Shown in pieces: positions 6,341 to 61,000 of a stretch of DNA of 64,000 nt (its first letter is position 1; every line of letters begins with the position of its first letter). Made by a program: the position numbers and the translations under genes. Source of the stretch: Gavia stellata (Eukaryota > Chordata > Aves > Gaviiformes > Gaviidae). Where the stretch lies: the NCBI RefSeq assembly GCF_030936135.1, contig NC_082634.1:322501-386500 (forward strand), given 5' to 3'. The notes beneath the pieces are model-generated. The model had not been told where the DNA came from and searched no databases. It saw nothing but the letters and a program-made list of their open reading frames with translations.

Positions 6341-6540
6341 NNNNNNNNNNNNNNNNNNNNNNNNNNNNNNNNNNNNNNNNNNNNNNNNNNNNNNNNNNNN
6401 NNNNNNNNNNNNNNNNNNNNNNNNNNNNNNNNNNNNNNNNNNNNNNNNNNNNNNNNNNNNNNNNNNNNNNNNNNNNNNNNNNNNNNNNNNNNNNNNNNNN
6501 NNNNNNNNNNNNNNNNNNNNNNNNNNNNNNNNNNNNNNNN
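6341..6540. other. assembly gap of 200 N inside RYR1
   Basis: Exactly 200 N, so a placeholder length. RYR1 residues about 91 to 889 (rest of the N-terminal domain, MIR, RIH and first SPRY regions) should lie here. A short tandem repeat with GTACCCCGTGC-like units (6541-6720) flanks the gap on the right. Confidence 0.98.
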
Positions 6541-7012: not shown

Positions 7013-10000
7013 CTCGGCACCGGCCTCGGGCCGTTGGCCAACATCTCCTGCAGCGCCCGCACCGAGAGCGACTGCTCCAGCACGAAGCAGCAAGACGGCC
7101 AAGTCGGGGGGCACGTTCTGGGGGGAGAGGGGGGTCGGGGGGGGCACGGGGGGGCGGCGCGGGTGTCCCTGCGGGGGGGGGAATCCAGGGACCCCCCGTG
7201 CCCCCCCATACCCCCCACCCACCCCACCTGGGCGTTGGAGGTGGGCTCCATACACCCCCATACCCCCCCCCATGGCCCCCCCGTGCCCCCCACCTGGGCG
7301 TTGGAGGTGGGCTCCATACACCCCCCCCCGTGGCCCCCCCCCATGCCCCCCCATGTCCCCCCCCCTCGGGCGTTGGAGGTGGGCTCCCATACCCCCCCCG
7401 TGCCCCCCCCATACCCGCCCCCCCCCGGGCGTTGGAGGTGGGCTCCATACACCCCCATATCCCCCCATACCACCCCCATGGCCCCCCCATACCCCCCCCA
7501 TGGCCCCCCCCATGGCCCCCCCCCACCTGGGCGTTGGAGGTGGGCTCCATACACCCCCATACCCCCCCCCATGCCCCCCCCATACCCCCCCCGTGCCCCC
7601 CCCATGGCCCCCCCCCACCTGGGCGTTGGAGGTGGGCTCCATACCCCCCCATGCCCCCCCCATGGCCCCCCCCATACCCCCCCCGTGCCCCCCATGGCCC
7701 CCCCCCATGGCCCCCCCCCCACCTGGGCGTTGGAGGTGGGCTCCATACACCACCCATGGCCCCCCCATGGCCCCCCCCATACCCCCCCATGCCCCCCCCC
7801 ATGGCCCCCCCCCACCTGGGCGTTGGAGGTGGGCTCCATACCCCCCCGATACCCCCCCCCATGGCCCCCCCATACCCCCCCCATGGCCCCCCCCATACCC
7901 CCCCCATGGCTCCCCCCCACCTGGGCGTTGGAGGTGGGCTCCATACACCCCCATACCCCCCCCATGCCCCCCCCGTGCCCCCCCCCACCTGGGCGTTGGA
8001 GGTGGGCTCCATACACCCCCATACCCCCCCCGTGCCCCCCCCATGGCCCCCCCCCACCTGGGCGTTGGAGGTGGGCTCCATACACCCCCATACCCCCCCC
8101 ATGCCCCCCCCGTGCCCCCCCGTGCCCCCCCATGGCCCCCCCCCGTGCCCCCCCCCGTGCCCCCCCACATGGCCCCCCCCGTGCCCCCCCCGTGCCCCCC
8201 CCCCACCTGGGCGTTGGAGGTGGGCTCCATACACCCCCCATGGCCCCCCCATGGCCCCCCCCATACACCCCCATACCCCCCCCGTGCCCCCCCCGTGCCC
8301 CCCCCGTGCCCCCCCCCACCTGGGCGTTGGAGGTGGGCTCCATACACCACCCATGGCCCCCCCATGGCCCCCCCATACCCCCCCCATGCCCCCCCCATGG
8401 GCCCCCCCCCACCTGGGCGTTGGAGGTGGGCTCCAGCGCGCAGAGGCGGTTCCCGAAGCCCTCCGCCGTCAGACAGAGCTTCAGCTGCTCCCGCAGCAGC
8501 GCCGCCGTACACTGCAGCACCACCTCGTCCTCCTGCGGGCACCGCGCTCAGGGGGGGCCGGGGGGGCTCCCCCCAATGGGGACCCGGGGGGGGCTCCCCA
8601 TGGGGGGGGGGGGCACCCCATGGGGACCCGGGGGGGGGCACCCCCCAATGGGGACCCGGGGGGCTCCCCATGGGGCGGGGGGGGCACCCATGGGGCGGGG
8701 GGGGCTCCCCATGGGGACCCGGGGGGGGGCACCCCCCAATGGGGACCCGGGGGGGGGGCACCCCCCCATGGGGACCCGGGGGGCTCCCCATGGGGCGGGG
8801 GGGCACCTATGGGGCGGGGGGGGGGCTCCCCATGGGCCGGGGGGGGCACCTATGGGGCGGGGGGGGCACCCCATGGGGACCCGGGGGGGGGCACCTATGG
8901 GGACCCGGGGGGGGGCACCCCCCAATGGGGACCCCACATAGGGCCGGGGGGGGCACCCCATGGGGCGGGGGGGGGCACCTATGGGGCGGGGGGGGCTCCC
9001 CATGGGGACCCGGGGGGGGGCACCCCCCAATGGGGACCCGGGGGGGCTCCCCATGGGGCCCGGGGGGACACCTATGGGGGACCCGGGGGACCCCACATAG
9101 GGGCCGGGGGGGACACCCCCCAATGGGGACCCCTGCAGGTGACAACCCCCCATGGGGGACAGGACCCCCGGGTGACCCCCCCATAGGGGCCGGGGGGGAC
9201 ACCCCCCCATGGGGGACAGGACCCCCGGGGTGACCCCCCCATGGGGACCCGCGGTGACCTCCCATAGGGGCCTGGGGTGACCCCCCCATGGGGACGGGAC
9301 CCCCCCCATGGGGACCCCTCAGTGACCCTCTGGGGACGGGACCCCCGGGAGGGACCCCTGGGTGACACCCCCGGGGACAGGACCCCTGGGTGCCCCCCAC
9401 CCCATAGATCTGTAGGGGGGGACAGGACCCCTGGTGCCCCCCACCCCATAGATCTATAGGGGGGGACGGGACCCCTGGGTGACCCCCCCCGGGAGGGGAC
9501 GGGACCCCTGGGTGCCCCCCACCCCATAGATCTATGGGGGGGTGACTGCAGCGTCCGCCCCCCCCGCCCCCCCCCCACCTGCTCCCGTCGCTCCGGGCCC
9601 GGGGGGGGGGGGGGGGGGGGGGCGGATTCCTCCCGCGCGCCGGGAATGGCACCGGCCCCGCCCGGGGGGGGAGGGGGGGGCGGGGGGGCCGCCTGGGGCC
9701 CGGGGGGGGGGGGTCGCTCCGTGCCTCAGTTTCCCCGGGGGGGCAAATCCCCCCCCCAGCCCAAATCTGCTGAGCTCAGCATTTCCCACGCCCCCCCCCC
9801 CCCCCCCCGCGGGGTCACACCCGGACACGGGGGTCCTTCCCCTCCCCCCAAGGACACCGCCTCGTCCTTGACCCCCCCCCCCCGCCCCCCCCATCCAGGC
9901 GGCCGCTCCCGGGGGGGGGGCGGTTATTAACGGCATCTCCCCCCCCCCCCCCCCCGGGGGGTCCCAGCCAGTTTTGAGGCCAAACTGGGAGGAATTGGGA

Positions 10001-11104
10001 CGAGGGACGAACTGGGCCACCCCCCCCCCCATCCCCCCCCCCCGGGGGGGCCCCAGCGGCGCCCTGCCCATCCCCCCCCGGGATCTGTTTTCGCCCCCCC
10101 CCCCCCCGCAGCTGCTCCCCGCCCCCCCCCGGCTTTGCCCGTTGCTTTTTTTGGGAGCGCACGCGGCCCCGCGGGACAGGTGGGGGGCCCCCCCCCCCCA
10201 TCCCAGTCCCTCCCAGTGCTCCCAGTTCGGGCTGGTGTGTCCCCCCCCAGACAGCCCCTCCCGGTCCTCGCTGCCCCCACCGGTGCCTGTCCCCCAGTTC
10301 CCCCAGTGCTCCCAGTTCCGAGCCCCCCCGTCTCCCCAGACCCCCCCGCCTCTCCCCCCAGTATCCCCCAGTTCCCCCATTCCCCAGTGCCCCCCCAGTT
10401 CCCCCAGTATCCCCAGCCCTGTCCCCCAGTCCCTCCAGACCCCCCCGCCTCTCCCCCAGTATCCCCCAGTTCCCCCATCCCAGTCCCCCGAGCCCCCCAG
10501 TATCTCCTCCCAGTCCCCCCTGTGCCTGTCCCCAGTGCTCCCAGTTCCCAGATCTGAGCCCCCCCATCTCCCCAGACCCCCCAGCCCCGTCCACCCAGTA
10601 TCTCCCAGTTCCCCAGTGCCCTCCCAGTATCCCCCCCCAGTATCCCCAGTCCCCCAATGCTCCCAGTTCCCAGACCCCCCCCAGTATCTCCCAGTTCCCC
10701 CATTCCAGCTCCCCAGTGCCCTCCCAGTATCCCCCCAGTACCCCCAGTCCCCCTGTGCCTGTCCCCCAGTTCCCCCACTGCTCCCAGTTCCCCCCGCCTC
10801 CCCCCCAGTATCTCCCAGTTCCCCCATTCCCCTCTCCCCAGTGCCCTCCCAGTATCCCCCCCCAGTATCCCCAGTCCCCCCAATGCTCCCAGTTCCCCAG
10901 ACCCCCCCCAGTATCTCCCAGTTCCCCCATTCCCCTCTCCCCAGTACCCCCCCACCAGTTCCCCCCAGTTCCCCCAGCCCCGTCCCCCCAGTATCTCCCA
11001 GTTCCCCCATTCCCCTCTCCCAGTACCCCCCCCAGTCCTCCCAGTATCCCCCCACTCACCGTCCGCAGGAACTGGACATCGTCCTCACCGTCGGCTTCGG
11101 CCAT
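7013..11104 (-). CDS. RYR1: RYR1, ryanodine receptor 1, exons 1-3 (N-terminus)
   Basis: Exon 1 is 11104-11060 (ATG at 11104, [15 protein letters not shown]), exon 2 8532-8413 (EDEVVLQC to LEPTSNAQ), exon 3 7117-7013 ([33 protein letters not shown]). Lengths 45, 120 and 105 bp are all multiples of three, as in the family. Together they give the first 90 residues of the N-terminal beta-trefoil of the channel. Exon 3 reads through only with one extra base near its start and one missing base near its end; the two cancel, so its length is normal, which argues for consensus errors. The next exon recognised downstream encodes about residue 890, so roughly exons 4 to 23 are absent from the assembly at the 6341-6540 gap. 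The start is fixed by the family N-terminus. Confidence 0.95.
7190..8412 (-). repeat. RYR1 intron 2 minisatellite carrying copies of the exon 2 end and its splice donor
   Basis: Thirteen units, spaced about 60 to 150 bp, each contain a near-perfect copy of the last 23 bases of exon 2 (coding EPTSNAQ); eleven keep the CAG|GTGGGG donor and two (near 7367 and 7427) have lost it. Copies lie near 7226, 7292, 7367, 7427, 7525, 7618, 7721, 7813, 7919, 7988, 8056, 8204 and 8319; the genuine exon end is at 8413. The rest of each unit is CCCCCCATGGCC or CCCCCCGTGCCC filler. The minus strand is open from exon 2 through the whole array. Confidence 0.93.
8560..9540. repeat. G-rich minisatellite in RYR1 intron 1
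   Basis: Units of about 30 to 60 bp with the core CCCCATGGGGACCCGGGGGG; from about 9060 it grades into a looser CCCCATGGGGGACAGGACCC type. It contains many G-runs of five or more. It lies in the intron between RYR1 exon 1 and exon 2. Confidence 0.92.
10195..11050. repeat. minisatellite of CCCAGTATCTCCCAGTTCCC type in RYR1 intron 1
   Basis: Short units of 10 to 35 bp (CCCAGTATCCCC, CCCAGTTCCCCC, CCCAGTGCTCCCAGTTCC) run up to 10 bp before the exon 1 donor. Between the two intron-1 arrays (9540-10195) I see only GC-rich sequence with long G and C runs. Confidence 0.9.
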
Positions 11105-11390
11105 GTCACCAGTGGGTGCCGGTCCCGAGTGGGCGCCGGGGACCCGTCACCAGTGGGTGCCCGTCCCGAGTGGGTGCCGGTCCGAGTGGGCGCCGGGGAC
11201 CCGTCACCAGTGGGTGCCGGTCCCGAGTGGGCGCCGGGGTCCCGTCACCAGTGGGTGCCCGTCCCGAGTGGGCGCCGGGGACCCGTCACCAGTGGGTGCC
11301 CGTCCCGAGTGGGCGCCGGGGACCCGTCACCAGTGGGTGCCGGTCCCGAGTGGGCGCCGGGGACCCGTCACCAGTGGGTGCCGGTGCCTA
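11105..11390 (-). repeat. 42-bp tandem repeat forming the RYR1 leader
   Basis: Seven copies of a 42-bp unit containing GTCACCAGTGGGTGCC and CGAGTGGGCGCCGGGGAC start at the base immediately upstream of the RYR1 ATG (minus strand). If transcription starts upstream of 11390 the array is the 5' untranslated region; otherwise it is core promoter. Confidence 0.9.
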
Positions 11391-28206: not shown

Positions 28207-30879
<2,673 letters not shown>

Positions 30880-37700: not shown

Positions 37701-40700
37701 TGGGGCGTGGGGACACGGCACGGGGACATGGCGTGGGGACATGGCGTGGGGACATGGCATGGGGCATGGCACGGGCATGGGGGCATGGCATGGGGACACG
37801 GTGTGGGGACACGGCGTGGGGACATGGCGTGGGGCATGGCACGGGCATGGGGCATGGCATGGGGACACGGTGTGGGGACACGGCGTGGGGACATGGCGTG
37901 GGGCATGGCACGGGCATGGGGCATGGCATGGGGACACGGGTGTGGGGACACGGCGTGGGGACATGGCGTGGGGCATGGCACGGGCATGGCATGGGGACAC
38001 GGTGTGGGGACATGGCGTGGGGACATGGCGTGGGGCATGGCACGGGCATGGGGCATGGCATGGGGACATGGTGTGGGGACACGGCGTGGGGACATGGCGT
38101 GGGGCATGGCACGGGCATGGGGCATGGCATGGGGACACGGTGTGGGGACACGGCGTGGGGACATGGCATGGGGCATGGCACGGGCATGGGGCATGGCATG
38201 GGGACACGGTGTGGGGACACGGCGTGGGGACATGATGTGGGGCATGGCACAGGTATGGGGCATGGCATGGGGACACGGTGTGGGGTGTGGGGACACGGCG
38301 TGGGGACATGGCGTGGGGCATGGCACGGGCATGGGGCATGGCATGGGGACACGGTGTGGGGACACGGCGTGGGGACATGGCGTGGGGCATGGCACGGGCA
38401 TGGGGCATGGCATGGGGACACGGTGTGGGGACACGGCGTGGGGACATGGCGTGGGGCATGGCACGGGCATGGCATGGGGACACGGTGTGGGGACATGGCG
38501 TGGGGACATGGCGTGGGGCATGGCACGGGCATGGGGCATGGCATGGGGGACACGGCGTGGGGCATGGGGACACAGTGTGGGGACACGGCGTGGGGACATG
38601 GCGTGGGGCATGGCACGGGCATGGCATGGGGACACGGTGTGGGGACACGGCGTGGGGACATGACGTGGGGCATGGCATGGGTGTGGGGCATGGCATGGGG
38701 ACATGGTGTGGGGTGTGAGGACATGGCGTGGGGACACAGCGTGGGGCATGGCATGGGCATGGGGCATGGCATGGGGACACGGTGTGGGTGTGGGGGACAC
38801 GGTGTGGGGACACGGCATGGGGACACGGCACGGGGACACGACGTGGGGCATGGCACAGGTATGGGACATGGCATGGTGACACGGTGTGGGGTGTGGGGAC
38901 ACAGCATGGGGACACGGTGTGGGGACATGATGTGGGGCATGGCATGGGGACACGGTGTGGGGCATGGGGACACGGCATGGGGACATGAGCTGGGGACATG
39001 GCGTGGGGACATGGCACGGGGACACGGTGTGGGGCAGGGGGGACACGGCATGGGGACGTGACCTGGGGACAGTGTGGGGACATGACATGGGGCATGGCAC
39101 GGGCATGGGGCATGGCATGAGGTCACAGTATGTGGCACACGGCACAGGGACGTGGCACAGGACACGGGGACAGCGGGATCCGAGGAGGAGGAGAGGGGGG
39201 ATGAAGGCTCCTACCTTGGGTGAGCAGGAGGGCTGCGGAGAGGGGAGAGGAAGACGGTGAGATGGCGCCGGGGCTCAGCCCCCAGAACCCAGCGTCCGCC
39301 TGCCCCGCCCTGCCCCGCCCGGCCCCGCCCTGCCCCCACCGGCCCCGCCCGGCCCCGCCCGGCCCCGCCCGTACCCCGAGATGCCCCGTTTGAGCCAGCG
39401 CGGCTGCCCCAGCTCGATGAAGAAGTTGTCCTTCTTCTCGTACTCCTCATCGTCCACGATCTTCACCTGCAGCGTCTTCCTGGGGACGGGGGGACATGGG
39501 GGGACATGGCACCGTCACCGTCACTGGCACCGGCACCGCCACGCCCCGGGGGGGACCCACCATGCCCCGGCGGGATGAGGGGGTGCAGGAGTCGGCCACG
39601 TGGGCCACGTCCATCCCCTTTCTGCCCCATGGCACCCATGGGGCGGGGCTGGTCCCCGTGGGTGCAGGTCCCCCAGGGGCAAGGGGTGGGCGACCATGCC
39701 GGGGGCTCGTGCACCGGGCTGCCCGCCCCGGCGTCCCCCGCCCCCCCCCCGCCGCCACGTGTCCCCTCCCGTGCCGCCGCCCTCCCCGGGGTGCCGGCGT
39801 CTCACGCGGTCTCGTCGTTCCTGAACTCCAGCTCCCCGCAGGCGTCCTCGTAGTGGACGCCGCCGCCGCGGGCCGTGCCCTCCACCGTGCGGTAGGGCAG
39901 GAGGACGGTGCCGCGGGCACCCGAGCTGCGGACCACCTTCACCTCCACCGTCCCCTGGCACTCGCTGACGTGCAGCAACCGATCCTGGAAGGTGAAGATG
40001 CCGGCGTGGTCGTCGTCCAAGATGGTGACGGTGGCCACCAACGGAGCCACCAACCGCCCCTTGGGGTGCTCGGCCGAATCGGTCTCAAACATCCCCTCGG
40101 CGTCGCCCACCCGGAGGTTGAGGAGGCGGACGAAGAAGTGCTCGTCCTCCTCGAAGATGTCGTCGTCGATGATGCCGATCTTCAGCTCCTTCTGGGTCTC
40201 CCCCGGCTTGAAGATCAGCGTCCCCTCGCTGTACTCGTAGTCGGAGCCCGCCTTGGCCGAGCCGTCCTCCGTCTTGTAGTCCACGTAGAAGGTGTGGTTG
40301 GCTTCGGCGCCCTGTTGGCAAGCTACCGAGAGCGTCACCGAGCCGCAGTTCTCCAGGCAGTGGTACAGGCAAGGCTCGAAGAAGATACGGCTGCAGGTCT
40401 CCTCCTCGGCGTCCGAGGGCACCTCCAGGAGGGTGGAGGACCTCTTGGAGAACTCGGCCACGTGTTTCTTGAGGATGTTGCCGGCGCCGGTCATCATACG
40501 GGTGGCCTGGATGCGGTAGAAAGCGCGGCTCTTCTGCTGGTGGAGCAGGGCGTAGTAGTTGGCCATCTCCACCAGCTGCTCCAGCTCCTTCTCGGGGTGC
40601 TTCTGCTTGAGGTCCTTCAAGATCTGGATGACTTCCCGGCGGCTCTCATCCAGCTCCTTCTCCTCCGGCGTGGGGGCGGGCAGGGCGGGCGAGGCGGTGA

Positions 40701-41556
40701 CGCCGGCGCCTTCGGCCTCGCGGCGTTCGGGGACGGGGAAGCCACCGTCCATCTCGATGCCCTTGGGGAGCTCGCCCTCCGTGCCGATGATGATGCCGCT
40801 GCGGGGGTCGGCGCGGTAGCGCTTGTAGACGTACTTGTAGAAGAGGAGCCGCTTGTCGGCGGCCCAGGCGAAGACCACGCAGACGGGGAAGAAGATGAGG
40901 GTGAGGAGGGCTTCCCAGACCTGCACCACCCCGGGGGAGATGACGGCCAGGATCAGGTAGAGCCAGATGTAGGCGAAGATGCTCCAGGAGGCCGTGACGA
41001 AGAAGACCCTCAGGTGCTTGATCTTGCGGCTCTCGCCGCTGGGGATGACGTAGACGCAGACGGCGATGACCACGAACATGTTGAAGGCCGCGCTACCCAC
41101 GATGGTGCCGGGCCCCAGCTCGCCCGCTTGGAAGTTGTGACCGCAGACCTCGATGACGGAGAGGAGGATCTCGGGGGCCGAGGAGCCCAACGCCATCAGG
41201 GTGAGGTTGGAGACCGTCTCGTTCCAGATGCGGACGGTGCCGATGCTGGTCTCCCCGTTGGCCTTGGTGATGGTGATCTCCTTCTCCTTGGAGGTGATGA
41301 CCTCGATGGAGGCCATGAAGCGGTCGGCGATGATGGAGACGCCCAGGAACATGTACATCATGGCCACGAAGTAGACGATGGCGCGGGCCGCCTTGTCGCC
41401 GAAGGAGGGGTTGTCGGGCTGCCAGACGGGCAGCAGGACGCCGGGCTGGCAGCGGTTGGAGCCCTGGCACGTCCCGTTGGCCTCGGCCGCCGGCTCGGGG
41501 GCGCAGGGCTCGGCCAGCAGCAGCGCGGCCACCAGCGCCGCCCGCCGCGCCGCCAT
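34704..41556 (-). CDS. SLC8A2: SLC8A2 (NCX2), sodium/calcium exchanger 2
   Basis: Coding exons: 41556-39806, 39479-39375, microexon 39232-39215, 37434-37310, 37200-37101, (gap), 35080-34704. ATG at 41556 opens a signal peptide (MAARRAALVAALLLAEP) and an N-glycosylation site (NGT, residue 27). Then come TM1-5 with the alpha-1 repeat (LMALGSSAPEILLSVIEVCG), the XIP helix (RLLFYKYVYKRYR), Calx-beta domains 1 and 2 (DYKTEDGSAKAGSDYEYSEG; ILDDDHAGIF), and in the last exon alpha-2 (DTFASKVAALQDQCADASIG) to the end EAYCHIKGF. NCX2 is the brain-type plasma-membrane 3Na+/1Ca2+ exchanger. The exon(s) with TM6-7 and the GTSIP motif are missing at the 36164-36363 gap. One extra G at 39374-39377 is inferred from the phase of the microexon. 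Confidence 0.96.
35100..36900. repeat. minisatellites flanking the gap in an SLC8A2 intron
   Basis: Left of the gap (35100-36163): GGGGACATGGGGTGGGCACG and GGGGACACGGCGGGGACGTG units of 20 to 60 bp. Right of it (36364-36900): GTGGTGGCCCCAGGG and GATTGTCCCCAGGG units of 15 to 30 bp. The two families differ, so at least one single-copy stretch (the missing exon) must lie between them. Confidence 0.92.
36164..36363. other. assembly gap of 200 N inside SLC8A2
   Basis: Exactly 200 N, a placeholder. The exon(s) coding for the cytoplasmic-loop end, TM6, TM7 and the start of the alpha-2 repeat are expected here. Confidence 0.98.
37440..39130. repeat. 70-bp minisatellite in an SLC8A2 intron
   Basis: About 24 units, typically 70 bp, built from GGCATGGCATGGGGACACGG, TGTGGGGACACGGCGTGGGG and ACATGGCGTGGGGCATGGCA. 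It lies between the exon at 37310-37434 and the 18-bp microexon at 39215. Confidence 0.94.
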
Positions 41557-41699
41557 CCCGCCGGCTCCCACCTGCGGGCGAGAGCGGGCTCAGCGCCGGG
41601 CCGGGGAACCCTCGTTAGGGGCGGGGGGGGCTCGTTAGCGCCGGCTGGACGGGGAGAAGACGCGAACCCCGTTTGCCGCCCCAGCGCCGGCTCTGCACC

Positions 41700-45605: not shown

Positions 45606-46164
45606 AAGGTGGGGGGGTCCTCTGGTCACACACCCCCGTCAGGCTGGAGATCCCCCCGGCCACGCCTGCCCAAGGAACAGGGGGTCCCCGAAAAGCTGGG
45701 GGGTCCCCAGCCCCACACCCCCCCTCCCCAGGAGCCCGGGACCCCCCGGGGGTGGGGGTCCCCCCCGGCCGCCGCCCCTGTCACCTGCTGGGACGAGTCA
45801 CCCCCGATTCTCCCCTCCCGGGGGGCTCTTCGGCATCGCCCGGAGCCGGATCCCGGCCTCTCCGGCGGCAGCAGCTCCGCGTCGGCACCTCCCCGCGCTC
45901 GGCCCTTCCCCGGCTCTGGCACGATTAGCGCAGGAACCAGATGCGATCGCGCCGCAGCGAGGAGGGGAGGCACCCGGCACGGGGGCTGCCGGCACGGGGG
46001 CTGCGAGCTGCCGGCACGCCGCCAGCCGCGGGCGGGGGGTCCCGGAGGCGCACGAAGGGTCTCGCCCCAAAAACGGGGCTCTCCCCCTCCACCGTCCCCA
46101 CCCCGGAGCTTTCCCGGCCCCGGCGGCATTCACCAGAGAAGCCAGGGCTGGCGCCGGGGACGTA

Positions 46165-46170
46165 TTTATT
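46165..46170 (-). terminator. KPTN polyadenylation signal (AATAAA on minus)
   Basis: TTTATT on plus, 102 bp downstream of the KPTN stop codon at 46272. Confidence 0.75.
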
Positions 46171-46271
46171 GGCGGGGGGCGCGACCGGTTGGGGTACATC
46201 CAAGTCGGCGGCGGTCTCGCCGAGGCTGGTGACCGCCGGTGGCGTCTTTGGCATCCTCCACCGCCGCTGGG

Positions 46272-49200
46272 TCACTCCGCCACCGCCCGGCGCCGGCCTC
46301 TGCGCTCTGCTTCCCGCCGGAGCCGCTCCAGGAGGCGGCGTGCCGTGGGTTCCAGGCTGTGCTGCCGGTGGGGAGGCGTGGGGGTGAAGCCGGCGGGGAC
46401 AGGCGGCCGCGGAACCCCCCCAACTCCGTGGGGTGACGCTCACCTGCAGGACGTGGAGCCCCTTCAGGCAGACGACGGCGAGTTCGCAGAGCCCGTCGGC
46501 GGTCAGGTCGGCGTAGAGCATGGAGAGCAGCGGGCTGGGGAAGCGCCGTGTCCAGAGGAGCCGGAATTCGCCGGGCGGATTCCCCGCGGCGCCGGTGTAT
46601 TTGTAACAGAGCAGCTCCTGCGGCGGAAAGAGGACGCGGGGAAGTCAGGGGGCTACGCCGGCGGGGGTGTCGCGCGGCCCGGCACGGCTCGGAGAGCCGT
46701 GCCGGGCCGTGCGACCGCCCCGCCGGCGCGTGGCATCACCCACCTGCCCGTAGGTGCCGAGGAGGATCTCGCGGGCGCCGTCGAAGTCGACGTCGGTCAC
46801 CAGCGCGCAGAGGACGCTGTCGTACTGGTCGCTGGCCGGTAAGATCAACTGGTCGCCCAGTCCGTTGGTTAACACGTCCCTGGAGAGGGCGGGGGAAAGC
46901 CGGGCGGTGAAGAGGAGCGAGGCGAAGGTTCCCATGCCGCGGCCCCGGCGCTTACCGGTACACCACGGAGAGCTCGATGGTGCTGGTGACGAGGACGCTG
47001 TATCCCTGCGCGGTGACGGCGTCACCTGGGAGAAGGAGAAGGCGGTGGGACGGGCGCCGTGCCGGCAGAGAGATGTGCCGGGCGGGAAAACCGGAGCTCC
47101 GGAGAGCCCACGCTGCAGCGGCAGGCAGGGATGGGTGCCGAGGTGCTGCGTGCGACCGTCCCCTTACCGTCCCGGGTTGTGCCGGCTCCCAGCTCCGACG
47201 GCAGCGGGAACACCAGGACCTTGGAGATGGGACCATCCTGCTGGATACTCCAGCTCTGGAGCACGGCTGCGAGACAGAGAGTGGCTGCCGCCGGGATCCG
47301 CTGGCTGGGACGGGGCTCCCGCTCCCACCGATGCCATCCTGCCTTCTCCCAGAGCCGGGAAGGATCCAGCATCGGATCCAGGGGCCGAAACCGCGCCCAA
47401 CCCATTTTCCAACGATCGCCCCGAGCCCGTTATTGCCCCCCGGCGCTGCCGTGGGGCTGAGGACATAAACCGTGCCGGAGCGGCCGATGTAACGGTGCCG
47501 GGATGGTTAATTCCGGGTGGGATAGGGAGAACCGCGGCCGCCGGGTCTCACCTGGGCTGGCCTGGTCCACCCGGGCGACGCGGACGTAGCCGCTCTGGCA
47601 ACCGAAGGCGGGTGACGCGCTGGCCGGCGCCGGGGATGTTGCAGACGTCGAGCCAGAGGACGCTGCGGGCGGGGGGACGGGGGGTCAGCCGGCGCCGGCG
47701 CCGCGGACGGCCGCGGACCCCCCCTCGTACTTGCTGGCAGCTCCTGGAGCTCGGGAAAGAGGTGCTGGACCGGCTGCTCCTCGAACTGGTGCGAGCCTTC
47801 GTTCTGCCGGAGCGGGGAGAGCGAGTGGGGCCGCGGCGGGGCGGGCGGCAGGGAAAAAGCGGGAAAAGTGGGGAAAAATGTGGGAAAAGCGGGAAGGAGG
47901 GAGGCGGGAAAAGCCGCGCTCACCTCCTTGTAGAGGTGGATGGAGGGGTCGTTCCCGCTCAGCAGGAAAACCGTCTCGGGTTTGTCGCCCACGCAGACCC
48001 TGCGAGGGCGGAGGAGGGCGGGTGACGGGGGGCCGGCGGATTCGGGGGGCCCGGGGGGGGCCGGGGGGGTACGCACTCGGCGTGGCAGAGCTGGAACGGG
48101 GTGAACTGCAGCTCCAGGTTGAGGCAGCTCTCTGCGGGGAGAGGGGAGAGGGAGCCCCGGGCGAGGGGCTGCGCCGCCCCGGCCGGATCGCTCCGAGACC
48201 CCCGGGGAGCCCACCGCGACCCCCGGGGGACACACGGGGGGGGCCGGGGGGGGGACACGGAGCACGGGGGGGGACACATGGAGCACAGGAGGGGACACAC
48301 AGAGCCTGGGGACACACGGACGGGGCCTGGGGGGGGACACACGGAGCATGACAGGGGACACACGGAGCCTGGGGACACATAGATGGAGCCGGGGGGGGAC
48401 ACGGAGCATGAGCGGGGGGGACACACAGAGCCTGGGGACACACGGGGGGGGGCGGGGGGGGGACACGGAGCACGGGGGGGGACACATGGAGCCTGGGACA
48501 CACGGACGGGGCCCGGGGGGGACACACGGAGCATGACAGGGGACACACGGAGCCCGGGGACACACAGATGGAGCCGGGGGGGACACGGAGCATGAGGGGG
48601 GGGGACACACAGAGCCTGGGGACACACGGGGGGGGGGCGGGGGGGGGACACGGAGCACGGGGGGGGACACATGGAGCCTGGGGACACACGGACGGGGCCC
48701 GGGGGGGACACACGGAGCATGACAGGGGACACACGGAGCCCGGGGACACACAGATGGAGCCGGGGGGGACACGGAGCATGAGGGGGGGGACACACACAGA
48801 GCCTGGGGACACACGGACGGGGCCCGGGGGGGACACAGAGCACAGGAGGGGGGGACACAGAGGCAGGGGACACACAGATGGAGCCGGGGGGGACACACAG
48901 AGCTGGGGGGGGACACGGAGCAGGGACACACACACAGAGCCTGGGGACACACGGACAGAGCCGGGGGGGGACACAGAGCCCCGGGGGGGACACACAGAGC
49001 CGGGGGGGGGACAGATGGAGCACCGGGGGGACACACATGGAGCATGAGGGGGGACACACAGAGCCCCGGGGGGGACACACAGAGCCGGGGGGGGCACAGA
49101 TGGAGCCCGGGGGGGGGACATGGAGCACCGGGGGGACACAGATGGAGCCCAGGGGGGACACATGGAGCCCGGGGGGGGTACACAGAGCCCGGGGGGGGCA

Positions 49201-52052: not shown

Positions 52053-55000
52053 TTAGCGCAAGTCCTCCTCCTCGCCCTGGATGGTTTTCTTGATGCGGAG
52101 CAGCATGGTGGTGAGCCACTGGTCCAGGCGGGAGATGGAGTCGTATTCCTTCACCTGAGGAGGAGGAGGAGGAGGAGGAGGGAGGAGGGGTTATTTGGGA
52201 GGAAGGTGGGGGGGTCCGGGGCAGCAGAGCCGGGGGGAGGAGGGGGCTCCTTCCCCCCGCGCGTTTGGGGTGGATTCGGGCGTTTTACTCGCACCAGCGT
52301 CAAACCTACCGCGTCGGTGTAGCCGTCGATGTTCTGTTCCTCGTGAGCATCCAGCAATTTCTGGAAGGGCAGGAAGGGGGGGATGAGGGAAGGGAGACCC
52401 CCCCTCCCTCCTCAGGGGGAGGCCCCGAGCGCCTCCCAAAAACCCTCCGCTCCCTTTGGCTTCGCTCCCGGCCCATTCCTCAAGAACAGACCCGGCACGC
52501 GGCGGGGGGACCGGAGCCGGCTGCGCTGGCCGGAGCCGAGCCCACGGCGGCCGGGAGCCTCCTGGGGAGCGGGCAGGCTGCAGCCGATCCCGGCCCTTTT
52601 AGCGCTCCCCGGGACTGGGACGCGATCCCGGCCCTGACGGCGTTTCTGTCCGAGTGATGCAATGGAGAGGAAGGAGGGAATTCTGCTCCTCACCTTGACC
52701 AGCTTGCACTCCCGGGAGTCCGTGAACGCCGGAAACATCTCTTCGTACTTCTGCACGGCCAGCTGGAGGGGAGGATGAGGATGAGGAGGAGGCGGGGAGC
52801 AGGGAAGCAGGGAGCACCCCGTGCGGGTGTGCTGCTTTCGGGAGCTTATCCAGAGCGGCGGCAAGCGTCCCAGCACTGCCGCTAGCCCGGCGGGCAGGAG
52901 AGCCCCCCCGGCCCCTTCCCGAGCGCCGGCCGGCGGGTGCCGAGGGGCTGCGTGCCCCGTTGTCCCCCCGACCCCGGGCCCACCTTTGCGTTGAGCATGT
53001 CGATGCAGAAGTGGCAGAGGGCCGCCTTGAAGAAGTACTCCTTGGCGCTGTACTTCAGCAGGGGACTGTCCATGGCGCTGGTGCCCACCTGGAGAAGACA
53101 ATCGGAGAGTTGGAGGGGGGAGCTCGGAGCTTTCCCGGGTTATTTAGGGAGCGAGTCCTCTGCCGCGGGAGGGGCTGCAGCGAGGAAGCTCTCCTGAGAA
53201 GCGGGAGGAGGGAGGACGCATCGAGGAAGCCCGGACCTGCTCGTAGATCTCCACGGCTTTCTGGTACTGCTCCAGCTGGGCCGCGTACGTGGCCACTTTC
53301 AGCAAACACTTGTTAGCCGAGCTGCGGGGAAAGGAGAGCCGGGAAAGCTCGGAGCAGCGCTCTCCGCGCCGCCCGGGGAGACACAACCCCACCGCTGACA
53401 CCCCAGCTCCCGCCTCGAGCGCCGGGAATTGGGGTCCCCCCAAGGCGGGGGGGAAGTTGCTGCGCACAGGAGAGCCCGGCAGCGCCGGGAGCCCCGCCGG
53501 CACGGCACGCAGGGAAGCGCCGCCGGCCCTTGCCCGGGTCAGAAGCCGGTGGCGAGGACCAGGCGGGGAAGCGGGCAGCAGTGAAAACCCCCAACGCCGC
53601 TCGCTTCGGGGCGGGGAGTCGCTTCGGGGACAGAAACTCGGCCACCATCTGTTTCCTGAGCCACCCCGGGCCGTGCCGGAGCGCCGATCCCGCACGGATC
53701 CCCGCCTGCAGCAGAGCTTTTACCTGTTGGACTCTTCCCCTTTGTAGTAATCCGCAGCCTGCTCGTAGTGGGCTATGGCCTAGGAAGAAGGCAAACGCAG
53801 TCAGGGCGCAGCACGCCGTAAAAAAAATTACATAGATATGTATAAAAATACCAAGATACGGGAGCTGCGGCGCTGCCGGCCTCGGGAGAATCCTCCCCAG
53901 CCCGGCCTCGCAGGGCACAGGCCTGCGCCGAGCCGCCCACGCCGCTTCCGCTGCCATCTGCGCTCCGCTGCGGCCAGCTCCCGTCCCAAGGTGGCAACCG
54001 GCCGGCAGCTCCCCGCCGAGACAAGGTCAGTGCGGCAAGAGGGCCTGGACCTTCAGGGCAGGGGCGAGATGCCAGCCCGGCGAGCGTCCCGGCGTGCCGC
54101 AGCTTTATCGGGATGAGCAAAGATACGCTCCCTCCCCGGGGGAAAGTTATTTTTCCTCTTTTCAGCCCATTCTGTAAGGGGGCGGCTCATCTCCCGGCTG
54201 CCCGTGGGCGCGTTTCACACCCGTCTCCTGCCAACAGGCTGGGGACCTACTGGGCAGCTAAATTTGAAGACGAATCCTATCACTGCCACAGAACGGATGG
54301 GATCGGTGCCGAGGAAAGGGGAGGCTTTCCTGATGGGAGCTCACGAATCCGGCTGAGCAAGCTCGGCCCTTCCCCGGAGCGCCGAAGCCCGGCCTGAGGG
54401 CAAATCCCTAGGTTATTCTCCGAGCAGCTGCGGGTTATCCCCGGGAGCTGACAAGCAGGGTGTCGGAGAGGCTCGCTGGGAGGAGCGTCGAGACCAGCCC
54501 TAAATTAACTCGGGAAGCGAGCGGAAGCCCGAATTAGATCCGCGCAGGATGTGGAAACTTGCTTCCCTGTAAAATGAACCTGGTTTATTCCCCAGGAGAA
54601 AGAAAAAAAAAAAAAAACCAACCAAAAAACCCAACACCCGACTGAGTCAGAATCCGGAGCCTCGGGGGCTGGAACAGCATCCGCGGAGGCGGCCCTGAGG
54701 GACCCCGCAGGCCCCTGAGCCTCCGGGAAGGCGGAGGGCTTCGCTACCTCCATCGGCAGCGGCGATTTCTTCTCGGATGGCTCCAATCAAACTGTTCTCG
54801 CGCTTCCCAGACGCCCACGCGAGCCCAAAGCTTTTTTTTTTTGGGTTTTTTTTTCCCCCTTCGTTAGCTGCGGCGTCAAAGCCGTTCCAAGCGTCTTCCC
54901 GGGTTTGCGCAGGGCTGACACACACCGGGAAGCATCGCTGGTATTTGGGGCTTAAAGCCACTTCGGCGACGGCGGCAGCCGGCACGTTCCGCGGAAGAAG

Positions 55001-58000
55001 TGAGAACAGCCCGAGGGAAAAGCATGACCTGCTGAGGCTGAGTACGCCACCCTCAGCGGGCGTGACAGCTCTGAGCTCATCTGCCAGGCTTGCGGTGAAT
55101 CAGCGAAGCCCTCCGGAGCCACGAAGCCTCCGGGTTTTGACCGCTTCCAAACCCCCGCTTGAATTGAAGGCGGCATTTACGGAAGCCGGAGGAGGCGCGG
55201 CCCGACAGCCGGGCACCTGCTCTGCGGCATTCCCCTCTCTCCCCCGCGGTTACCTTTTCGATGTCCACCAGCTCCGTCTCGTAGATCTCCGCTATCGATA
55301 TGTGGTGCTTCGCAGCGATGGTGAACCGACCCTGGAAGCAGAAAGGAGTTTGCGCACCCGGGCTGGCGCTCGGCGGGGTGCCGGGAAGAGCGTTCCGACC
55401 CCAACGGAGAGCTGCTCCGAGGGCTGACAGCGCTGCCGAACTCGCCATTCCCAGCGCTCAGGGAAGGTTTCGGCCCCTGCCCACCGGGTGTTTGCCTCCA
55501 GGCCTCACCGGGCGCCGGTTCCAGCCCTGTGCGATGCCGGCAGGCTGGACAAAAACACCCCAGACCCCCGTTTCCACCGAGCTGAGGGCGCAGAGAGGTG
55601 GGTCAGGCCCTTCGGCCTCACCACCCTCCCTCCCGGTGAGAAGAGGCCGGCCGGGCTTACCATGTCTGTGTAGATCTCGATAGCTCTGATCAAACAGTTA
55701 ATGGCCTCTGAGAAGAGAAAGAAAGAAATCGGTGAGCACAGGCGTTTTGGAAGAGCGGCGCTGCTTGCCACCCCTCCCTCCCGCTCCCAGCCTCCCCGAA
55801 GCGATGGAGCTGTATTTATAGCACGCTCAAAGATCAATAGCTGCTCCAGAAAAGCTGCTGAGGCTACAGGCTTCCAGGGAAATTTAGAGCACGCCAGAGC
55901 AGGCGGGTAGCGAAAAGCAGAAGCCAGAGAGCGGCTCCATCCAGTGCCCCGTGCCGCCCGGGAGCTGGGACGCACGAGTAAGCTGTTTGTTCCCCGGAAC
56001 AAAAGGCCTTTGTTCGGGGCGTAGGGCATTTGAGAGGCAGGAACCGCAACGCCAGGGACGCAGAAAGGGCCAAGCCCCTGCGGTAACTCCACAGCCCCCC
56101 TCCTGCCCCACGGGACCAAGGCAGGAGCCCCCCACCGCCTCTCCCCAGACCGCGGGGTGGGATTTAACCCGGCATCGACTCAGATCCGGCCCCCTCTGTG
56201 GTGTTCCATCCCAGAGACGCGCTCGCTGCCCAGCTCCGCCACAGTCGGCGGCACACGGCGCAGGACAGGGGGGCCGAAGCCGCAGCGTTTTGCTGTATCT
56301 CAGGAGGCGCCTTCCCCTCGGTGTCTCCGAAGAGGCGTGGGAGGAACTCTGCTGCAGCTAAATGCCAGGCTCCGGGAGACGGATCTTTTTCTGACTGCTC
56401 CCAGCTGTCGGGCTCGCGGCGCTCTCTACCAGGGAGCCGAGCAGCCGAGGAGCTGCCATCTGACTGACAGCTGTCACAGCCGCGTCTTCACCGCACCCAG
56501 CCCCGCCAAACACCTCACCTGCCCCAAGGCTCCGTCCAGCACAGACCCATCCCCACCACAGTGAATTCCCCTGTATTTTAGAAGGATTTTGCCCCGTTAG
56601 GAAGAGGCGGGCTCAGCCTCCGCCTTCCCCCTCCGGTTTACCAAAAGCCACAACACGCCGGGGAACGGGCGCGTTTCGGCACACCGGCTCGCGCAGCCAG
56701 CCGGGAGAGGAAAACACAGGTCGAGAGCAGCGCGAGCGGGTAACGGGAACATAAATCTCTGGGAGATTAAGCAAATCCTCCAGGAGATTAAATTTGTTTT
56801 CTCCTCAGGTTACTCCATTATCTTCTCTGAAAATCACCCAAACCGATCCGGCCCCGGCGCAGATAACCCCGGGGGCAGCGGTAACTAGCGAGACGGCGCG
56901 CCAGGAACAGCAAAGCGTTCCCCCGCGGCATGGGGGACCGGCTCTCGCACTCCTCCTTCGTATCCTAAACCCAACGATCCACGTTTGTCAGCTTCCGCCC
57001 CTATATTCCCCTCTCGCGCTCCGGATCACGCAGAAGAGAGCTAGGATCCAAGTGACCCGGGGGAAAGGCGCAGGACACCCCAACTCGTCGCCCGTCCCCC
57101 CCGAAGCCGGCTGAAGCGCCAGGAGGAGGAGCGCGTACTCTCAGCTGATCCATCAACCCCAGAACGTTCCCCCCGTGCCGGCTCGGCTCCCAGCAGCAGC
57201 TCCAACGCCGGAGCGAAGGGAGCCAAACGAAGCGCGAGATCCACGCACGGCGCGTGAATCACGACCAAACCCCTTCGTTGGCTTCAGCCGAAGCCATATG
57301 CTCAGAGCCGGGCTCGGCGGGGGGCACAGGGATTCCCGCAGACGGAGGGAGGGGGGAACAGACGTCATCCGGCAGGCACGCTGGCTGCGGAGGGGAACTT
57401 TGCTACCGGAGCGACTTGCAGCTCGGGGATGCACGTCAAATCCAGCCCACGGCATCTCGGCTCGCTCCCAAAGGCGTCGAGAGGATGGGATAACACACAC
57501 CCAGGAGAAACCCTTGCGTAACGGGCAAAAACCCGGCCGACGCGCAGCCTCCGGTAACTGAAATCGGGGCGTTTTACGTCTGCTCGCGTCTCCCGCTCTG
57601 GAAGGCCGGAGGGAAAGCGAGCCCTCACCTTGCGGGTCAGCTTTCTTGAAGGCGTTGCCCGCGTCCACGAAGTTGGTGGCTGCGTCGTGCTTGCTCTGCA
57701 GCTGCAGGTGAAGCTGCGCCGCCTGGCAAAAGGCGTTCCCTGCGGCTGGAGGGGGAGAGAGGAAGCTCAGGAGCGTTGTCTGAACCGTTTCAGAAAGGCT
57801 GGGGTGCGGGCAGGTTACCCTCCTCAAAATCCAGCTAAAATAAGCCAGCAGCATCGAGCCTGCGCCGGCTTTCGGACCCAGAGGGGTTCGCTCCTCCCCG
57901 GGAGGAGGCGAGGAGACTGTGCCCCCGGCCCAGGGAACCGGCTCGCGGCCGCGTGTGTACGTACCGCTCCAGTTTTTGGCCATTTTGAACATGTTTGCTG

Positions 58001-61000
58001 CTCGGGCGTAGATGTCGCATGCTTCCTCTATCCTGGAGGAGCCCCTGGAAGCAAAGAGAAGCCGGGCGTTGCATAAATCCCTGCTGGGAAACTCAAACCC
58101 TGCGCCCGAGCGGAAAAAATAAATGACATTGCTCCGCTGCAGCTGCCACCAAGAGCACGAGAGGCTCCCTGGGGCGAGCTGCTGCCGCAGAGGAGTCTCT
58201 CCCGGCTCGAGGGGCAGAGGGACCCGGCCCCCGCAGGGCTCTCTGGGGAAGCTGCCGGTTAAAACGGAGGCCAACGGGGAGAGAAAAGCGGGTTTGCTGC
58301 CTGCTTCCTCCGAGCCGCAGCTTGCAGGCGGCTCGCACGGCCGGAGGAATCGTGCTCGCGGCCGTGGGGAAGCAACCCCAACCTTTCCCCGCCGCTCTAG
58401 AACGCCCCACAGACAGCGGGAGCTGGGCCAGTCCTTCACAGAAACACTTTTTTAATTAATAATTAACGAGCAGAGGAATCCTCCCGCGGGCGCTTCGCCC
58501 CTTTGCTGCCCCAAACGAGCCCACGCTGCTCCCGTCGGCGAAGCCCCGGCTCACAGCCTCCCTCTGCCGCCGGGGACACAGCCAGCACCCGCTGCAGCAC
58601 CCTCCTGGCCCCCAAAAACACTCTCCCGGCCCCCAAAGCAGCCTGAGGGGAGCAGGGAGGGAGCCAGCTCGTCCGACGACGACCCGTTTTAAAACGCAGG
58701 GGCTGCGGCACACGAGCACCACCTCCCAGCTCTCCGGCTCTGCTAGCGAGCGCGTTCCTCTGCTGACCTTGCTGATTCTGACGAGAAATCCCGGCTGGGG
58801 ACTCGAGGGAGGTTATTATGGCTGCGTTTGTGTTTTGGGGGCTTTTTTAAGCACCAGCTTAAGCAGTTTTGCTCACGTTTCCTCTCTCCCACTAGAAACC
58901 GGCAGTTAGAAACGTGGCAGAGGCTGGCAGGAGCGACTCGCCGGAGTCAGCGGCTCCACCAGTTCGGATCGGTTTGAGCAGCAAAGTTCTCCCGCTCCCC
59001 AAAAAAGAGGAGAATCATCAAGGCAGCCGCTCCGCCCGATGAACAAACCGGCAATGCCGTCCCTGCCAAACCCCGGGCGATAACCGGGCTAAAAGGGCAA
59101 CAAGCATCCAGCGGACTTCGGCAGCCGGGCTTCGCTGACGGTGAGTCAAGGCCGCCGGAGACAAGCGGGGAGACCTCAGCGCTTTACGAAACGGCCCTTT
59201 AGCTCAGAGAATCTCAACCGCCATTAGAAATTACCGTTTAACACCCAAGCGCCCGAGTTTTGTGTCTCACGTTAATTTGGAGCTGTTAAATAACATTAAG
59301 GAGGGCGAGCTGAAGGAAACGCCATGGCACGGCGAAGCGAAGGGCAGCAGAAACCACGGCTCCGGTCGCCCCACCACGCACAAAACCTGGCCACAGCGTC
59401 TCCCTCCCTACCGCAGCCCGAGGAAAACAAACCTCCCCCTTATCGGGCAAGCGCCGGACGCGCTCTTGTTTATGAAACCGCCCGGTGAAAGCTGAATTTT
59501 GCAACGTTAAGTGCGGGGCACCTCTCGTTTCTCCCCTAGCACGGCCGTTGCGTAAAGCCAGAGTTAAAGCCGGCATGAAACCGGCCCGGTCTTTGCACGG
59601 AGATGAGTCTGAGCGGCACCGGGGGGCAAAGCGAACCCCCGGAGTTTGCCCTTTTCCGGTACGACACGGGGCAGGGGGGAGCGGAACTCCCTCGGCCCCG
59701 ACGAGTCCCCGCAGAGGCGCAGCGCCAGCCAGGACTGCGCACGGCCGAGTTTAAAGTTTAAAAAAAAAAAACAACCAACCATTTGAACCGGTTTTAAAGC
59801 CCACGCCGAAAGCGAGGGATGAGTTTACGACGCATTGAGAGGCGGTAAGAGCGCCCGATGGTTTTTCACAGCCTTCCCCGCCCTCATCCGTAGCCCTCAC
59901 ACCCCGTTTCGCACCCTAACACCCTCTGCCGCCCCCCCGGCACCCCCATAGCGCCCGCCCTCACCCCAACCCCCCAGGGGCCAACACTCTCACCCCAAAG
60001 CTCCCCAGACGCCCCTAACACCCCTTCTCTGCCCCACAGCACCCCCCCTCACCGCAAACCCCCCCAGGGCCCAGCACCCTCACCCCAAAACCCCCCAGGA
60101 GCCCCTAACACCCCTTCTCTGCCCCACAGCACCCCCACAGTGTCTCCCCTCACCCCAACCCCCCAGGGGCAACACTCTCACCCCAAAACCCCTCAGGAGC
60201 CCCTAACACCCCTTCTCTGCCCCACAGCACCTCCACAGTGCCTCCCCACACCCCAATACCCCCAGAGCCCAGCACCCTCATCCCAAAGCGCCCCCAGAAG
60301 CCCCTAACACCCCTTCTCTGCCCCACGGCACCCCCACAGTGCCCCCCCTCACCCCAATACCCCCCAGCGCCCAGCACCCTCATCCCAAAACCCCCCAGAA
60401 GCCCCTAACACCCCTTCTCTGCCCCACGGCACCCCCACAGTGCCTCCCCACACCCCAATACCCCCCAGGGCCCAGCACCCTCATCCCAAAACCCCCCAGG
60501 AGCCCCTAACACCCCTTCTCTGCCCCACAGCACCCCCACAGTGCCCCCCCTCACCCCAATACCCCCAGGGCCCAGCACCCTCATCCCAAAACCCCCCAGA
60601 AGCCCCTAACACCCCTTCTCTGCCCCACGGCACCCCCACAGTGCCTCCCCACACCCCAATACCCCCCAGAGCCCAGCACCCTCATCCCAAAACCCCCCAG
60701 GAGCCCCTAACACCCCTCCTCTGCCCCCCAGCACCCCCACAGTGCCCCCCCTCACCCCAACCCCCCCAGGGCCCAGCACCCTCATCCCAAAGCGCCCCCA
60801 GAAGCCCCTAACACCCCTTCTCTGCCCCACGGCACCCCCACAGTGTCTCCCCACACCCCAATACCCCCCAGGGCCCAGCACCCTCATCCCAAAGCCCCCC
60901 AGGAGCCCCTAACACCCCTTCTCTGCCCCACAGCACCCCCACAGTGCCCCCCCTCACCCCAAAACCCCCCAGGGCCCAGCACCCTCATCCCAAAGCCCCC

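Follow-up and report, generated by a model that had tools for sequence, protein, structure and literature searches.

Exon stuttering, in which an exon edge is copied through the adjacent intron together with its donor or acceptor, is described by Hron et al. 2026 (PMC12954441), mostly from avian dot chromosomes. The main text of that paper counts 236 such introns, from 115 genes, in chicken; 190 of the introns are on dot chromosomes and 46 are off them. The copied exon parts measure 20-187 bp (median 36) and occur in 1-44 copies (median 4), and more than 90% of sources lie no more than one base from the exon border. The same text reports that stuttering introns vary in length among individuals, and that ohnologs on other chromosomes are without the repeats. 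In the literature from 2020 on, the terms 'exon stuttering' and 'sequence stuttering' were found in Hron et al. 2026 alone. A search for ryanodine receptor with tandem repeat, intron 2 and splice donor returned nothing on topic, judged by title. The human gene IFI6 (6-16, or G1P3) reportedly has a minisatellite giving multiple splice donors (so the title of Turri et al. 1995). Two downstream repeat units of IFI6 are used as donors, giving three mRNA species, in the account found in PMC4526556. Finally, the Rogers model, as outlined in PMC4974935, has introns gained by tandem duplication of exon segments bearing AGGT; the same account mentions fission-yeast genes in which a 24-bp piece of exon is present in several tandem copies.

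We analysed a window of 64,000 nucleotides from Gavia stellata, numbered from its first letter. A sequence-only reading had identified the gene at issue as RYR1. This identification stands: the 40-residue translation of exon 2, compared with PDB chains, scores best against RyR1 (63.9 bits, versus 55.2 bits for RyR2). The acceptor GCCCGCAG|GAG lies immediately 5' of the exon. By tblastn, with an approximate and incomplete query, RYR1 is placed on contig C41 from about 265.3 to 333.6 kb. A gap of 200 Ns is found at window positions 6341-6540. Exon 3 lies to the right of the gap, the exon for approximately residues 895-929 is just to the left, and the exons missing across it are presumably numbers 4 to about 22. 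Note that exon 3 keeps a total length of 105 nt, which we take to be that of human RYR1 exon 3. Its middle 21 or so codons are read in another frame, between +1 and -1 shifts that are about 21 codons apart. Since a real compensating pair is unlikely in so conserved a stretch, these shifts are probably base errors in the assembly. Coordinates are collected in Table 1.

Table 1. RYR1 exons, intron 2 and the intronic copies of the exon 2 end, in window coordinates.
Feature	Position	Strand	Description
RYR1 exon 1, coding part	11060..11104	-	15 residues, read by eye; donor ACG|GTGAGT
RYR1 exon 2, source of the copies	8413..8532	-	120 nt; EDEVVLQC...LEPTSNAQ; donor CAG|GTGGGG at 8413/8412
RYR1 intron 2, filled by the array	7118..8412	-	1295 nt
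RYR1 exon 3, acceptor side of intron 2	7013..7117	-	105 nt; +1/-1 frameshift pair in assembly
Copy 1	8320..8342	-	exact 23 nt, donor kept
Copy 2	8207..8229	-	exact, donor kept
Copy 3	8058..8080	-	exact, donor kept
Copy 4	7989..8011	-	exact, donor kept
Copy 5	7921..7943	-	exact, donor kept
Copy 6	7816..7838	-	exact, donor kept; unit starting here nearly identical to exon-adjacent unit
Copy 7	7723..7745	-	exact, donor kept
Copy 8	7619..7641	-	exact, donor kept
Copy 9	7527..7549	-	exact, donor kept
Copy 10	7425..7447	-	1 mismatch, donor lost (CCCGG|GG)
Copy 11	7366..7388	-	3 mismatches, donor lost (CCCGA|GG)
Copy 12	7294..7316	-	exact, donor kept
Copy 13, farthest from exon 2	7228..7250	-	exact, donor kept (GTGGGGTGGG)

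Two observations concern the surroundings of the gene. A 41-bp tandem array at 11105-11385 abuts the RYR1 start codon, with 5.5 copies at 11160-11385 and about seven, by eye, if the left part is included. Hence, the 5' leader is expanded up to the coding border, and the ATG is not copied. Neighbouring genes on the minus strand were recognized by Pfam at 28463-29038, 39805-41589, 53147-53719, and 57156-58451. They are of the CSN8/PSMD8/EIF3K family (PF10075), the sodium/calcium exchanger type (PF01699, PF03160, PF16494), and the SNAP family (PF14938, in two pieces). The segment at 45928-47163 resembles KPTN by eye and has no Pfam match. We take this set of neighbours to resemble human 19q13.

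The last 23 nt of exon 2, TGGAGCCCACCTCCAACGCCCAG on the sense strand, occur 14 times in the window when up to five substitutions are allowed. One occurrence is the exon itself (8413-8435) and 13 are in intron 2, spanning 7228 to 8342, all as direct tandem repeats. No copy was found on the opposite strand of the window at the same tolerance. Eleven of the intronic copies are exact, one has a single mismatch, and one has three; the same 11 keep a CAG|GTGGGG donor, making 12 donors with the true one. The two degenerate copies, 10 and 11, are neighbours. This substitution-tolerant search bears out what had been read from the sequence: thirteen intronic copies, eleven with the donor, a repeat unit that crosses the exon-intron border and does contain the exon 2 end, and twelve near-identical donors in one pre-mRNA. 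The interval first given, 7190 to 8413, was nearly right, except that 8413 is the last base of the exon. Starts of the 23-nt core are 59-149 bp apart. The spacers consist, on the sense strand, of G-runs, mostly parted by CCAT, CAC, TAT or CAT. In total, intron 2 has 85 runs of at least three Gs on this strand, and 14 G4-motif tracts make up 853 of the 1294 nt counted. The array is local. When a 161-nt stretch of it (7960-8120) was compared with the 1.32 Gb genome, all seven matches fell at C41 329,704-330,935; simple repeats are passed over in this search and scoring is limited to the top candidates, so that it does not by itself prove uniqueness.

We next consider whether such matches arise by chance. 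Ends of RYR1 exons were set by splice-site scoring, so that the gene was divided into 80 exon pieces and 79 intron segments, the latter totalling 56 kb. The screen was modelled on the published one: exons were compared with introns using blastn-short, taking matches of at least 20 nt and a threshold of 42.1 bits. It covered RYR1 itself, leaving out neighbouring genes, exons 4 to about 22 at the N gap, and some exons missed by the query. Intron 2 gave 11 matches at 46.1 bits and one at 42.1 bits. For 11 of these 12, the source is exon 2 positions 98-120 of 120; for the other it is 98-118. The highest scores from shuffled sequence were 40.1 bits (20 two-base-block shuffles of all introns) and 32.2 bits (five single-base shuffles). 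Once four over-extended exon ends had been corrected and exon 3 had been placed, the 79 segments held 12 proximal matches of at least 42 bits, all of them in intron 2. Three distal matches in the corrected screen also reach 42.1 bits. Hence, this score is at the edge of noise here and is unconvincing alone.

The first pass, before correction, had flagged four introns with 49 matches. Apparent stuttering after residues 1055-1149, before about residue 2345, and before about residue 3609 was rejected, because tblastn matches had overrun into intron repeats; the signals disappeared with corrected ends. A fourth over-extended exon end explained the flag at residues 2216-2272 in a screen of short edges, and was likewise removed by correction. 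The short-edge screen gave a chance match in one of ten shuffles. Two or more exact copies of eight exon bases joined to four intron bases occur, among the RYR1 introns screened, in intron 2 only. Chicken dot chromosomes, according to the main text of PMC12954441, have 190 stuttering introns among 5,572 (3.4%); the figure for RYR1, one of 79 segments (1.3%), has a similar order of magnitude.

A separate repeat is seen in the RYR1 intron after residues 2407-2483 (C41 303,449-304,375). It has a spacing of 133-186 bp and contains CTG|GTGAGA five times, each a site of donor strength. Unlike the array of intron 2, no exon sequence was found in its unit, so donors are also copied without exon sequence.

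The genome has two further homologues of exon 2, on contigs C2 (74%) and C7 (69%), which we read as RYR2-like and RYR3-like respectively. In both, exon 2 ends at the matching place with GT, and exon 3 is a separate match. We tested 20,584 nt of intron 2 for the RYR2-like gene (GC 0.361, tandem-repeat cover 0.00) and 8,503 nt for the RYR3-like gene (GC 0.349, cover 0.01), each of which ends a little way beyond exon 3. Neither contains an exon-2 match of at least 20 nt. C2 and C7 are 113.7 Mb and 50.6 Mb long; C41, with RYR1, is 455,725 bp. The GC content of C41 is 65% over 254 kb and that of RYR1 introns is 70%. Tandem repeats cover a median of 0.67 of each RYR1 intron (above 0.5 in 47 of 79), compared with 0.026 for exons. 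On the basis of size, GC content and repeats, C41 is probably part of a dot-type chromosome. Since the array is present in RYR1 on C41, and in neither ohnolog (one intron each), the instability appears to track chromosome environment rather than gene family. As a separate observation, the assembly has large clusters of avian keratin genes on contigs C28, C33, C3, C544, and C785. Some of these runs alternate in strand at regular spacing, approximately 5 kb on C33 and 10 kb on C28. All 150 of the candidates scored, out of 422, match PF02422, as suits a bird.

Very probably, the array is an instance of exon stuttering: a local, imperfect tandem expansion, arising as a mutational by-product, with splicing kept at the exon-proximal donor. 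The setting would be a gene rich in GC and repeats, carried by a small avian chromosome that is probably of the dot type. A founding segment that takes in the last 23 nt of exon 2, the donor, and part of the G-rich intron would have been duplicated in tandem. The array may then have been enlarged through further rounds of duplication, through slippage, or through unequal exchange, involving one unit or several at a time, and the donor would have come along as a passenger in each copy. Because LEPTSNAQ is presumably under purifying selection, the exon-side copy would be held and expansion would go into the intron only.

Traces of this history are visible in the units. The 6 nt on the 5' side of the core are GGTGTA in ten of the 13 intronic copies, GGGGTA in two, and GGGTAT in one. 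In the exon they are GCGCGC. Because of this difference, we place the start of the copied segment at the TGG of TGGAGCCC. The intron sub-repeats include TATGGGG, so TGG is a possible microhomology at the founding junction; note that three bases in G-rich sequence prove little. After collapse of G-runs, one letter separates the spacer of the exon-adjacent unit from that of the copy-6 unit, and the same holds for units 4 and 12 (both short). The difference is 12 letters between neighbours 0 and 1, and three between neighbours 3 and 4. That non-adjacent units are near twins hints at whole blocks of units having been duplicated or converted. It also follows, from the twin at copy 6, that the downstream context of the true donor belongs to the array. 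The 14 G4-motif tracts are compatible with the replication-stress idea, which the main text of PMC12954441 offers as speculation. Two points tell against a neutral view. First, the 11 intact donors among 13 copies could also reflect selection, and the low-complexity spacers provide no fair neutral yardstick. Second, the array has fewer stops than shuffled sequence, for which a neutral reading must credit the repeated unit.

The proximal donor adjoins the 120-nt exon body and yields the conserved Q|N junction. Hence, it is most likely still the one spliced, and the other 11 would be cryptic donors, used rarely or never. With those donors, the exon would be 213-1305 nt long, rather than 120 nt. 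The proximal donor alone gives both the conserved junction and a normal exon size, and so we infer that it dominates.

The main competing explanation is a splicing-active array. Here, downstream copies would be appreciable alternative donors, as in human IFI6/6-16, or U1 decoys through which removal of intron 2 is delayed or modulated. In its alternative-donor form, it would yield RyR1 in which exon 2, ending in LEPTSNAQ, is followed by a glycine-rich insertion. We consider this explanation unlikely, although several results are in its favour. Over 9 nt, none of the 11 decoys differs from the true donor. According to a simple weight matrix, CAG|GTGGGG outscores 68% of the 69 annotated GT donors of RYR1. 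The copies are therefore credible, predicted donors. Among the 66 RYR1 introns of at least 100 nt, 25 sites are at least as strong as CAG|GTGGGG, and intron 2 has 11 of them; this corresponds to 8.49 per kb, versus 0.26 per kb in the rest. Note that four of the other 14 lie in one segment, where at least two are, by eye, true donors of exons missed by the query, and five are in one intronic repeat. In addition, the array has no stop in any of its three frames, whereas 500 single-base shuffles average 20.3 stops. Hence, slippage to another donor would not be caught within the array. Finally, the use of two downstream repeat units as donors is what PMC4526556 recounts for IFI6.

Against this, the smallest insertion would add 31 residues inside the N-terminal domain. 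Furthermore, at face value, only six of the 11 decoys are in frame (retaining 93, 492, 597, 690, 1119, and 1185 nt) and five are shifted, a count that depends on homopolymer lengths we do not trust. Changes in the N-terminal domain of RyR1 are probably poorly tolerated. Every donor is also overlapped by G-runs, and by possible G4s, that could block its use. Separately, we folded the exon 2 end together with the first unit as RNA, by a method that we believe does not model G4s; its stability did not exceed that of shuffles (z = 1.29), 183 of 200 of which folded equally well or better. More specifically, some muscle RYR1 transcripts might be spliced from the copies, adding at least 31 stop-free, mostly glycine-rich residues to the N-terminal domain, with an individually variable array length setting the level or make-up of RyR1 isoforms. 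Such a live ladder of donors we regard as highly improbable.

Could the array be an artefact of assembly, with a copy number inflated or invented by noisy long reads over the C-homopolymer region? Homopolymers of 7-10 Cs are error-prone. The frameshift pair that scrambles about 21 codons of exon 3, and the nearby N gap with its missing exons, are also in favour of an artefact. The units, though, vary in length and in the order of sub-repeats, while a false tandem join should give identical blocks. Moreover, 11 of 13 copies reproduce the exon part without a mismatch. A structure of the same kind, in chicken PHF8, was checked against raw nanopore reads, according to the main text of PMC12954441. 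We conclude that an artefact is very unlikely. Homopolymer lengths, and the exact copy number, nonetheless cannot be trusted from the assembly alone. The structure of the array is independent of single bases, but copy number and frame depend on them.

It is scarcely credible that exon 2 truly continues into the array as a retained, variable-number coding repeat: the exon-2 frame is open through the whole of intron 2 into exon 3 (547 codons) and stops are rarer than in shuffles, but all three frames are open, so that none is preferred, the units are part coding sequence and part short sub-repeats, with fewer independent positions than a shuffle assumes, and both ohnologs terminate exon 2 at the matching GT, with exon 3 separate. 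When a shuffled 93-nt unit is written twice, it is stop-free in 1.45% of 2,000 trials. We rejected the missing stops as a sign of coding, given that every frame is open and the units are built from sub-repeats and a piece of coding exon; they still count against the plainest neutral reading.

The locus is a natural experiment in how the spliceosome chooses among twelve donors that are identical over nine bases and have nearly the same G-rich sequence downstream. With donors and context so alike, the choice must rest on distance, the exon body, and G-run or G4 structure. RYR1 is an essential muscle gene, in which splicing mistakes should be costly. If the length of the array varies between birds, as in published stuttering introns, the fidelity of splicing could be compared directly against copy number.

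Logically, the nearest comparisons are those with which we began. As in IFI6, each of the tandem units at the end of an exon brings its own splice donor. The difference is that the downstream donors of IFI6 are, in PMC4526556, reported to be used, whereas the RYR1 copies are predicted donors; the RYR1 units are also 59-149 bp long and mostly G-rich spacer. Tandem duplication in RYR1 likewise carries CAG|GT signals, as in the Rogers model set out in PMC4974935. Unlike in that model, no new intron results; the copies sit inside an existing intron, which both ohnologs have at the matching place.

The sequence-only reading implied that a donor array crossing an exon border was new, and this does not hold, since such arrays are already described as exon stuttering (PMC12954441). 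Its narrower statement, that no example is described from a ryanodine receptor, could nevertheless be correct: the main text of that paper makes no mention of RYR1, and the gene list is in the supplement. Set beside the main text of PMC12954441, our locus differs in some respects. Its 13 copies exceed the median of 4, its 23-nt exon part is below the median of 36, and per-intron donor strength and open frames through the array, which we examined for RYR1, seem not to be analysed there. The likenesses are closer. In RYR1, too, an exon border with its splice site has been repeated in direct tandem, imperfectly, across the neighbouring intron. The gene is GC-rich and repeat-rich, on a small contig, and its ohnologs elsewhere are unaffected (intron 2 only). 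Both the size of the exon part and the number of copies fall within the published ranges. Matches reach at least the 42.1-bit threshold and exceed the shuffles, and the source is within the published distance of the border in 11 of 12 cases. Thus, the RYR1 array looks like a known phenomenon, exon stuttering, rather than a new kind of thing, and adds RYR1, with ohnolog controls from the same genome, to that phenomenon.
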